From contig JAFGNA010000007.1 of the NCBI GenBank assembly GCA_016927245.1, positions 1 to 41,170 of the forward strand: a DNA stretch of 41,170 bases. The letters run 5' to 3'. Positions 8,797 through 12,339 of the stretch are shown here, piece after piece. The position numbers and the translations under genes are program-made. The notes under the pieces are model-generated. The model did not search any database. It was not told the DNA's origin and worked only from the letters and a program-made list of their open reading frames with translations. Source of the DNA: Candidatus Woesearchaeota archaeon. Its GTDB lineage: Archaea; Nanobdellota; Nanobdellia; Woesearchaeales; WJKR01. Positions within the stretch are counted from its first letter, which is position 1. Each line of letters starts with the position of its first letter.

Positions 8797-9912
8797 ATGG
8801 CAGTTCTCGGCCACATACGTAGGCGTGGCGCGCAACTCGGCGATGACGCTTTGGGCAACGTGAAGAAGTCCTTGAGGAGGATGAGCGGCGGCATCTCCGC
8901 TCGGAGAGCGTACCAGACAGCGATCAGCAACGCGAAGAGCGGTCACTTGCACGTGGTCCACGACAAGAAAGGGGTCCGCAGGGCGCTACACATGATTCAT
9001 GTGAGCCTCAAGCACGCGGACGCCATCAGTGATGGGAAGCAGCTCGGGCGTTTGCAAGAACGATATCGTGATGATGAGAAGCGGCTCAGGAGGCGTATTG
9101 ACACCCTCATCAGGCCATTCCCTGGTTATTTGAGAGACTTCGCTGACGGGCTTCACCTGTTCGTGATGAGCATCAATGACCTGCTGGTGAACACGAACAA
9201 GGAGCTGGGCGTCGACAACGAGCTCGTGCTGGGATTGCTCGCGGACTACAAGAACGTGCTCGAGAAGACCGGCGTACGTGTCTTGCCGGAGACGCTGAAA
9301 GGGGTCTTGAAAGAGCTCGTCGCTCTCGAGCGCAAGGAGAAGAAGTACGCGAAGAAAGAGGAGAAATTAGACAAGAGATTCCTGAAAGAGGATGAGCGAG
9401 GACGGGCGCATCACGGGCATATCGGTGTCGGCAAGGTCTTCCGCCTGGGACTGAAGGCTGAGAAGGCGTTCCTCGATGACGCGAGAAGGAACCTGGATGA
9501 GATGCAACAAAGCCTGACACGCGGGCACGCGGACCAGGCGTTCCTCGCGAGCTATCTCAAGCACCTGAAGAACTTCAAGAAGCTTGCGAAGATACACAAG
9601 AAGATCGCGCTCGACATCCTGGAGCTCCTCGGCATGGCGGATGATTACTTCAAGCAGATAGAGGACGTCGTGGCTTCTTTCGAAACCTTCTTCAAGACCT
9701 ATACGGATACGGAGAAGACGACTCGCGAACTTGAGGACATCAAGAAGAGGCATGAAGAGCTCGTCACCACCGTCAAGAACGATATCGAGTCCCAGAAGGA
9801 AGAATACTATTTGGCGAGGAAGACCCTCGCACGGTCGAAAGACCTCCTCCAGGAGATAGCGGCCGTCTCTGAGAAGAGCCTGCGGGCGGAGCAGGAGCGC
9901 ATCGCAGCATAA
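8797..9912 (+). CDS. Coiled-coil protein of unknown function
   Basis: This 371-residue protein is almost entirely helical and highly charged, with long heptad-like stretches in the middle (around EKKYAKKEEKLDKRFLKE) and at the end (ELEDIKKRHEELVTTVKND). No signal peptide, membrane segment or catalytic motif is visible. A TATA box (8762-8770) lies about 30 nt before the ATG, so the transcript is probably leaderless and separate from S10. I do not recognise a family; a structural or scaffold role is only a guess. Confidence 0.7.
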   Translation: MAVLGHIRRRGAQLGDDALGNVKKSLRRMSGGISARRAYQTAISNAKSGHLHVVHDKKGVRRALHMIHVSLKHADAISDGKQLGRLQERYRDDEKRLRRRIDTLIRPFPGYLRDFADGLHLFVMSINDLLVNTNKELGVDNELVLGLLADYKNVLEKTGVRVLPETLKGVLKELVALERKEKKYAKKEEKLDKRFLKEDERGRAHHGHIGVGKVFRLGLKAEKAFLDDARRNLDEMQQSLTRGHADQAFLASYLKHLKNFKKLAKIHKKIALDILELLGMADDYFKQIEDVVASFETFFKTYTDTEKTTRELEDIKKRHEELVTTVKNDIESQKEEYYLARKTLARSKDLLQEIAAVSEKSLRAEQERIAA

Positions 9913-9997
9913 CCTTTAAAAAAGAATCTCTTTCTTGTCTTACCAAGCCAACGTCGCATAGCTCACGTCAACCCACTGGTCATGCGCCACCAAGAAC

Positions 9998-10027: not shown

Positions 10028-10708
10028 ATGGGATTCTCAGAAATTAATAGGTATGTGAGCGTCTCTCGTTGGCAAAAAGTATTGGAGAATGAGAAATCAA
10101 GAATAAAGGATACGCACGAATCATTATTCTGGAAAGCCACCATATGTGGACTGCTCGCGGGAGATGGCTCTGTTCACGAGAGAAGGATGAAGAATGGGAT
10201 GCATCGAGAAGTGAGGCTCTACGCAGACGATCCGGTCATGGTAGCAACATACAATGAAGCGATGCAAAAAGTGTATGGTAAACATCCTTCGACACGCATT
10301 CGTGATAATGTTTGCCACGTCAGATTGACATCCAAAACAGTTGTACAAGACTTATTACGGGTCGGCAGGTTCGGCACAAAAGAGTGGCGAGTCCCCTTTC
10401 AATTGCTTGAACCCCAAGAAAGAAAAATCGCGTGGCTGAAAGGGTTTTTCTCTGGAGAAGCGTGTGTGGGCGAGAAGAATATCAGGGTACAAACCATCAA
10501 TAATGCGGGCATGAAAGACGTCTCCGCTCTGTTGAATCATATAGGAATCACGCATAGAACCTATTCATATAATCCAAGACCCTTGAATCATCATGAGGTA
10601 CACATAATATCCATCAACAGAAGACAGGCAAGAAAAAGGTATTGTGAAAGAATCGGTTTCTGGCATGGGAAAAAGACGGAAAAGCTGAAGAAAACAGTAC
10701 GTTTATAA
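10028..10708 (+). CDS. LAGLIDADG homing endonuclease-like protein
   Basis: This 226-residue protein has two LAGLIDADG-type helices: ICGLLAGDGSV near residue 37, and WLKGFFSGEACVG near residue 140. In the first, the acidic metal ligand is the Asp of GDG. In the second, Glu of SGEA takes that place. Two motifs in one chain fit a monomeric endonuclease (or maturase) that cuts a long asymmetric site. The gene is visibly more A/T rich than its neighbours, with many AGA, ATA and AAA codons, a sign of lateral acquisition. Its stop codon lies inside the TATA box of the tRNA-Ser(GGA) gene 28 nt further on. That tRNA has two introns, so a link with intron mobility is attractive but unproven. Confidence 0.85.
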   Translation: MGFSEINRYVSVSRWQKVLENEKSRIKDTHESLFWKATICGLLAGDGSVHERRMKNGMHREVRLYADDPVMVATYNEAMQKVYGKHPSTRIRDNVCHVRLTSKTVVQDLLRVGRFGTKEWRVPFQLLEPQERKIAWLKGFFSGEACVGEKNIRVQTINNAGMKDVSALLNHIGITHRTYSYNPRPLNHHEVHIISINRRQARKRYCERIGFWHGKKTEKLKKTVRL

Positions 10709-10736: not shown

Positions 10737-10875
10737 GCCGTGATCGCATAGCCTGGTATTGCGCGAATTCTCATGTAGGAGCAATCCTGAGGGAAGCGTA
10801 GGCCTGGAACAGGTTATGACGCTCTAGTGAGCTCGTCCCGTTAAGGGATCCCCGGTTCGAATCCGGGTCACGGCG
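10737..10875 (+). tRNA. tRNA-Ser(GGA) with two introns
   Basis: The 7-bp acceptor stem GCCGTGA/TCACGGC with G73, a D-arm almost identical to the tRNA-Ser(CGA) gene downstream, a serine-type long variable arm (TCCC/GGGA) and a perfect T-arm frame a 139-nt gene. A sensible anticodon arm appears only if two segments are removed: 10767-10801 (35 nt, between positions 29 and 30) and 10810-10829 (20 nt, at 37/38). The mature arm is then CGAGC CTGGAAA GCTCG, giving anticodon GGA and an 84-nt tRNA. Intron edges may shift by one base. The bulge-helix-bulge motifs were not fully resolved by eye. Confidence 0.8.
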
Positions 10876-11850: not shown

Positions 11851-11955
11851 GGGCTCGTAGCTCAGCTGGTAGAGGGGCTTAAGCAATCGTTTTCGCCCAC
11901 CATAAGCATCCGGCTCTTAACCGGAAGGTCGCGGGTTCGAACCCCGTCGAGCCCA
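11851..11955 (+). tRNA. tRNA-Lys(CTT) with a D-arm intron
   Basis: Acceptor stem GGGCTCG/CGAGCCC, A73, anticodon arm TCCGG CTCTTAA CCGGA and T-arm GCGGG TTCGAAC CCCGT are all clear. The D-arm is interrupted after TAGAG by a 32-nt segment (11875-11906), between positions 24 and 25. Removal gives GCTCAGCTGGTAGAGC and a normal 73-nt tRNA. A TATA box (11818-11828) precedes it. No promoter is visible before the tRNA-Glu(CTC) gene 54 nt downstream, so the two are probably cotranscribed. Confidence 0.85.
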
Positions 11956-12179: not shown

Positions 12180-12339
12180 GCCGTGGTCGCATAACCTGGT
12201 ATTGCGCCGGTCTCGAAAACCGGTTCCTTACGGAATTCCCGGTTCGAAAGCACGTGGTGAGCAAGGCACACAGGACCACTCCGGTCCGAGCACAGGCTCC
12301 GGCCTGGCCTTGACGCGCTCGAAAGTCCGGGCCACGGCG
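12180..12339 (+). tRNA. tRNA-Ser(CGA) with a T-loop intron
   Basis: Acceptor GCCGTGG/CCACGGC with G73, anticodon arm CCGGT CTCGAAA ACCGG (anticodon CGA) and variable arm TTCC/GGAA are uninterrupted. The T-arm starts CCCGG TTCGAA and its 3' strand T-CCGGG resumes only at 12326. Removing 12249-12325 (77 nt, between positions 59 and 60) restores the T-loop TTCGAAT and an 83-nt tRNA. The intron contains hairpins GGACC/GGTCC and AGGC/GCCT, plus a longer helix GAGCAAGG with CCTT...GCTC. TCGAAAG stands at both ends of the insertion. Confidence 0.85.

Follow-up and report, generated by a model that had tools for sequence, protein, structure and literature searches.

The stretch of DNA analysed here (hereafter the window; 41,170 nt) belongs to an archaeon that the names of its nearest rpsJ relatives place in the Woesearchaeota. 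Positions 10737 to 10875 of its forward strand hold a tRNA-Ser(GGA) gene in three exons, split by two small introns and preceded by an open reading frame (ORF) of the LAGLIDADG family (Table 1). In the unspliced sequence the acceptor, D and T arms pair perfectly and no anticodon arm forms. Excision of both introns yields an 84-nt tRNA-Ser with all arms paired, an anticodon stem CGAGC/GCTCG, an anticodon loop CTGGAAA, the long variable arm of class II tRNAs and a discriminator G.

Table 1. Features of the tRNA-Ser(GGA) locus, in window coordinates.
Feature	Position	Strand	Remarks
Apparent tRNA-Ser 5′-half remnant, GCCAACGTCGCATAGC ... CTGGTCATGCGC	9947..9987	+	Matches tRNA positions 8-28 with an insert of ~13 nt
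LAGLIDADG homing-endonuclease ORF, 226 aa	10028..10708	+	28 nt upstream of tRNA-Ser(GGA); PF14528, 3e-13
tRNA-Ser(GGA) TATA box, TTTATAAA	10702..10709	+	35 nt ahead of the gene; encloses the LAGLIDADG stop codon (10706-10708)
Exon 1, positions 1-29	10737..10766	+	Identical in the sister (G001) orthologue
Intron 1, 35 nt, position 29/30	10767..10801	+	Relaxed BHB; missing from the G001 orthologue
Exon 2, positions 30-37, contains anticodon GGA	10802..10809	+	
Intron 2, 20 nt, canonical position 37/38	10810..10829	+	
Exon 3, positions 38-73	10830..10875	+	Anticodon-stem 3′ strand, variable arm, T arm, acceptor, discriminator G

The two introns and the 84-nt product had been proposed in an earlier note on this DNA, and the same junctions came out best when re-derived with a script that scores one- and two-intron solutions for the genome's tRNAs, which were gathered by family, T-arm and D-arm searches. 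The combination of a 35-nt intron at 29/30 and a 20-nt intron at 37/38 scored 19.5 against 16.5 for the runner-up, and dinucleotide shuffling of the sequence between the arms, repeated 150 times, never reached that score (maximum 13.5). Two-intron alternatives for some other tRNAs, Glu, Gly and Thr among them, scored about the same as one-intron solutions and were excluded as evidence. The earlier note had also suspected that tRNA finders may miss the gene, rightly so: neither ARAGORN nor the Rfam tRNA model RF00005 made a call at this locus, even at a relaxed threshold. A weak match to the L31 leader (18.9 bits, cut-off 36) was put down to chance. By D-arm pattern the genome has exactly four tRNA-Ser genes, GGA, TGA, GCT and CGA, and the family, T-arm and D-arm searches found no second tRNA-Ser(GGA) in it that could make this one dispensable. 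With a relaxed bulge-helix-bulge (BHB) motif at each junction, all four central pairs formed in both, and no other tRNA-Ser(GGA) found, the pseudogene reading allowed for in the earlier note was not borne out, and we regard the gene as a confirmed two-intron tRNA-Ser(GGA), with introns at 29/30 and 37/38, whose transcript is predicted to be spliced.

The two motifs differ in form. That of intron 1 consists of a 4-bp central helix (GCGC/GCGU) in which exon bases 24-27 take part, a 3-nt bulge GAA, a 5-bp intron (inner) helix and an inner hairpin with a GCAA loop, with no outer helix, and that of intron 2 of a 4-bp central helix, a weak inner helix and a 5-bp outer helix, which is the anticodon stem itself and is complete only after intron 1 has been removed. 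The ends of intron 1 are not fixed by folding alone, since the tRNA-Ser(GGA) orthologue of a same-genus genome (G001), 57 nt past rpsJ and with near-identical exons, lacks the 29/30 intron; it has a different intron, of 21 nt, in the anticodon loop. Across the order, 22 distinct 29/30 introns of tRNA-Ser genes, which differ in sequence, form a bulge-side helix averaging 4.7 bp, compared with 0.6 bp when shuffled (maximum 1.4 in 2000), and 12 of the 22 end in GCGTAA, which pairs with exon bases 24-27.

These structures make it likely that the introns leave in a set order. Because the motif of intron 1 forms in the unspliced transcript, EndA would most likely excise the 29/30 intron first, whereupon the anticodon stem would close and complete the 37/38 motif, and a ligase would join the exons. 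The genome holds one EndA gene, of 214 aa and closest to the tRNA-splicing endonuclease chain 3iey_A, and a search of the genome for a second EndA subunit gene found none; we take 3iey_A to be the Nanoarchaeum equitans entry, with NEQ261 as partner. No group I match was found within the window; group I introns have a catalytic core and usually exceed 200 nt, against 35 and 20 nt here. A dependence of one intron on the removal of another is described for other archaea in a passage by the authors of tRNAscan-SE 2.0 (PMC8450103).

The earlier note had considered two introns unusual for a DPANN-like genome. This holds against the published picture, in that the same passage places multi-intron tRNA genes in Thermoproteales and Thaumarchaeota (PMC8450103; Sugahara 2008 and Fujishima 2010 cited there), but not within the order, where 21 of 107 classified tRNA-Ser genes, our own included, carry the 29/30 and 37/38 pair. 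It occurs in tRNA-Ser of many other families of the order, and in our own genome the Ser(TGA) and Ser(GCT) genes share both intron positions; the 37/38 intron is often seen where there is no endonuclease. As described in that passage, the genes of Thermoproteales and Thaumarchaeota likewise contain BHB introns, two or three per tRNA, at both canonical and noncanonical sites, and one of them may have to be removed before the next motif can form; they differ from ours in lineage, and a linked endonuclease is not mentioned in that part of the source.

Other tRNA introns were observed in passing. A tRNA-Ser(CGA) gene at 12180-12339 (+) of the window has a 77-nt T-loop intron at 59/60 (12249-12325) with a UUCG/CGAA central helix, and was likewise missed by ARAGORN and Rfam; T-loop introns with a GAAAG end recur in many relatives. 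Three tRNA-Ser genes read by eye (L319 in G011, L206 in G066 and L281 in G068) apparently have three introns, at 29/30, 37/38 and 59/60, and a tRNA-Ser(GGA) downstream of an endonuclease in G207 (L371) has introns at 29/30 and 59/60 and apparently a further short insert that separates the acceptor stem from the D arm. The tRNA-Lys at 11851-11955 (+) of the window and another of our own genome (L011, tRNA-Lys TTT) have introns within or just after the D arm, and roughly half of this genome's tRNA genes look as if they contain introns.

The ORF just upstream, which the earlier note had not connected with the tRNA, is what tells most about this locus. By its domain, its two acidic motifs and its predicted monomeric fold it is a LAGLIDADG homing endonuclease, for which DNA cleavage is predicted. 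The acidic motif residues D46 and E144 are invariant in an alignment of its relatives, and a family profile run against the PDB matches PI-PfuI (8e-15) and I-DmoI (1e-7). The AF2 model of the 226-aa protein (pLDDT 92) is matched by Foldseek to the same two enzymes, with a TM-score of ~0.8 to I-DmoI (by target length), and the bI3 maturase and the bifunctional I-AniI are also among the fold matches. Only distant relatives of the endonuclease, at 25-28% identity, were found in viral contigs.

Comparison with the same-genus genome G001 shows what separates the two alleles. There the tRNA-Ser(GGA) follows rpsJ directly and no endonuclease is present; in the window ~2 kb lie between rpsJ and the tRNA, made up of an ORF at 8797-9912, a piece resembling a tRNA-Ser 5′ half and the LAGLIDADG ORF. 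The 5′-half-like piece exceeds shuffled sequence in local alignment (p<=0.017) and has a TATA-like tttaaaa ahead of it at ~9915; a split-tRNA reading of this fragment is judged less likely, as a remnant fits better. The ORF at 8797-9912 (+), between rpsJ and the endonuclease, encodes 371 aa, is missing from that place in the sister genome, and found no relative in a scan of the genome contigs.

When 145 and 353 genomes from the order, mostly draft metagenome-assembled genomes (MAGs), were searched, ~17 close relatives of the endonuclease were identified. They form one clade, and wherever the 3′ flank is readable all lie directly upstream of, or overlap, a tRNA-Ser gene on the same strand. Overlap of the endonuclease stop codon with the tRNA TATA box is found at 11 loci, and with some Ser(CGA) and Ser(TGA) types the ORF terminates inside the tRNA. 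Three of the Ser(TGA)-type ORFs (L422 in G011, L425 in G224 and L426 in G121) stop within the 29/30 intron, the anticodon TGA or the D loop. The motif CACTGGACA recurs shortly before the promoter of the endonuclease ORF in many loci (for example L398, L400, L408, L370 and L425); it spans clades with different tRNA partners and is possibly an operator or an element end.

The 29/30 intron is present in ten endonuclease-linked tRNA-Ser genes (G000, G063, G103, G035, G005, G144, G017, G308, G207 and G145). Counted from the side of the tRNA, an adjacent endonuclease accompanies 3 of 19 tRNA-Ser genes with a 29/30 intron in the relatives and none of 85 without one (p=0.005), 6 of 22 and none of 86 when our own genome is included (p=3.9e-5), and p falls to 1.8e-6 when G103 and G011, read by eye, are added; these p-values are indicative, as the set is defined by an intact D-arm pattern, related genomes are partly non-independent, and 7 of the 85 genes come from named contigs screened within the locus only. 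Some linked tRNA-Ser genes are without the 29/30 intron, namely those of G019, G137, G101, G033, G168 and G224 and the second copy of G035. In these the D arm or position 26 differs from the consensus: G019 has a D-arm intron, and base changes at these sites are seen in G137, G101, G033, G168 and the second G035 copy. Such differences may serve as protection in linked tRNAs that lack the intron, but they are shared by many tRNA-Ser genes that have no endonuclease, and they are not counted as proof.

Our own genome and others show a series of decay. All three of its tRNA-Ser genes with a 29/30 intron have an endonuclease or its remains upstream: intact ahead of Ser(GGA), a degenerate LAGLIDADG ORF ahead of Ser(GCT) (PF14528, 24.2 bits, cut-off 22.5), and two frame-shifted halves ahead of Ser(TGA), which are 50-54% identical to the intact endonuclease preceding tRNA-Ser(TGA) in G011. 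The fourth gene, Ser(CGA), has neither the 29/30 intron nor an endonuclease. Elsewhere, the endonuclease gene of G017 has in-frame stops, and in G098 only the first ~18 codons remain, 41 nt ahead of the tRNA. Upstream of several 29/30-intron tRNA-Ser genes, such as those of G021, G032 and G043, no endonuclease can be detected; decay would account for this without being proved by it.

The association extends beyond serine. Other LAGLIDADG clades lie upstream of tRNA-Leu, Pro or Gly genes or beside Tyr or Phe genes, and introns are visible in most of these tRNA genes. A tree of 55 proteins recovers the Ser, Ser(TGA), Leu and Phe groups each as one well-supported clade (the Ser clade holds 14 of 14, support 100/99), and the tRNA labels require 11 changes, compared with 30.1 when shuffled, a value as low being reached in none of 200 shuffles. 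Such clustering of clades by tRNA is not what chance insertion close to tRNA genes would be expected to produce. No tRNA was found near ~20 of the 55 proteins, and linkage to a tRNA is therefore not universal in the wider family.

We propose that the pre-tRNA-Ser(GGA) contains two BHB introns of which the one at 29/30 is probably one half of a mobile pair, the adjoining LAGLIDADG gene being the other, and that the pair spreads by collaborative homing. A free-standing endonuclease gene adjoins the intron-bearing tRNA-Ser, and an allele with neither the 29/30 intron nor the endonuclease exists, in the tRNA-Ser(GGA) of G001. The endonuclease would recognise D-arm and anticodon-stem DNA of an intron-less tRNA-Ser and cut near 29/30, and when the break was repaired from the donor, the intron would be copied along with the endonuclease gene. 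The donor would be spared from cutting because the 29/30 intron splits the recognition sequence, and the essential tRNA would still function because the intron is spliced out; once the pair was fixed, the endonuclease gene would decay and the intron stay.

The debris around these loci bears on the manner of insertion. In several loci the left tRNA pieces upstream of the endonuclease end near positions 26-29, where a cut at 29/30 would be expected to leave the old 5′ half. The acceptor stems of some left remnants differ from those of the working tRNA, and insertion at 29/30 retaining only a 5′ half therefore cannot explain every locus. At three loci (L345 in G033, L391, the second G035 copy, and L370 in G308) 5′ and 3′ remnants of another tRNA-Ser, whose acceptor halves match, enclose an endonuclease and a complete tRNA-Ser. 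Resident tRNA genes may therefore also receive the endonuclease and its tRNA as one whole unit. A more speculative reading, possible in our judgement but doubtful, sees a natural cleave-and-rescue element, in which the nuclease destroys the cell's single essential tRNA-Ser gene and is fused to a working copy made resistant by its intron or by an altered D arm; G033, G308 and the second G035 copy would then be loci where the pair seems to have inserted into the resident gene and taken its place. Were this true, parallel clades would act in the same way on the tRNAs for Leu, Pro, Gly, Tyr and Phe, and would drive the gain of tRNA introns throughout the order.

Collaborative homing has to be weighed against other accounts of the same genes. 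This could be an ordinary two-intron archaeal tRNA beside an unrelated selfish gene that prefers tRNA promoters or genes as landing sites; integration into tRNA genes is frequent in archaea (PMC3293823), some linked tRNAs have no 29/30 intron, and the 37/38 intron occurs without an endonuclease. We nevertheless judge this account unlikely, given that several endonuclease clades are faithful to one tRNA identity across families, that ORFs end in the TATA box of the tRNA or run into the tRNA itself, and that adjacency tracks the 29/30 intron. We give still less weight to the idea that the intron shields the host from integrating elements or from nucleases that cut tRNA genes, with the endonuclease as an invader rather than the vehicle of the intron. 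The notion of a shield goes back to Randau and Soll, as cited in a passage of PMC3293823, and the position of the intron inside the presumed target and the altered D arms of intron-less linked genes agree with it, but a shield alone predicts no linkage, and in our own genome and about ten linked loci the endonuclease lies in cis, beside the gene it would be kept out of.

Two further accounts concern what the parts are. An RNA maturase that aids tRNA splicing, rather than a DNA endonuclease, is conceivable because some LAGLIDADG proteins are maturases, among them the fold matches bI3 maturase and I-AniI; it is nonetheless highly improbable here, since BHB introns are cut by EndA, which this genome encodes, both catalytic acids are invariant, and many such introns persist where there is no LAGLIDADG protein. 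That the tRNA is a pseudogene, or its introns an artefact of folding, would fit the silence of ARAGORN and Rfam, but is scarcely credible for the sole GGA copy found, with perfect arms, a TATA box, a sister orthologue with the same exons and a score that no shuffle equalled.

The closest precedent for the collaborative homing proposed here is F-CphI, a free-standing endonuclease encoded beside the intron-bearing psbA of cyanophage S-PM2 (PMC6083498). In both systems a free-standing endonuclease gene adjoins an intron-bearing gene; an intron-less target and a block of cleavage by the intron have been shown for F-CphI and psbA (PMC6083498) and are proposed for the tRNA-Ser locus. The phage system involves a self-splicing group I intron and a nuclease of a different family, whereas the tRNA-Ser locus combines cellular archaea, short protein-spliced BHB introns, an essential tRNA and a LAGLIDADG enzyme whose ORF is fused to the tRNA promoter. 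The LAGLIDADG endonucleases of archaeal rRNA introns (I-DmoI) and of archaeal group I introns share fold and motifs with the 226-aa protein, but those enzymes are encoded within their intron, while here the intron has 35 nt and the gene lies outside and upstream of it. The 39 archaeal group I introns of one study were found only in rRNA genes (PMC6125680). A model of tRNA-Thr disruption in Caldiarchaeum (PMC3293823) resembles ours in tying a mobile element to tRNA intron gain and to the scattering of tRNA fragments, and differs in relying on integrase-based plasmid or virus integration with no homing endonuclease. Our search of the open-access literature found no earlier report of a BHB tRNA intron coupled to an endonuclease, which is not proof of absence.

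The tRNA-Ser(GGA) by itself is of a known kind, and it is the coupling to the endonuclease that we propose as a new form of collaborative homing. Woesearchaeota tRNA sets are under-called by common tools. The locus offers an intron-plus and intron-minus pair within one genus, a predicted target of ~20 bp, and intact, broken and deleted copies of the endonuclease. The mechanism of intron transposition in archaeal tRNAs is described as still unknown in a passage of PMC4090602, and the pair described here is a candidate vehicle for the gain and movement of such introns. If this is true, collaborative homing, described for a group I intron of a phage, would also apply to introns that are spliced by proteins and lie in essential genes of cells.
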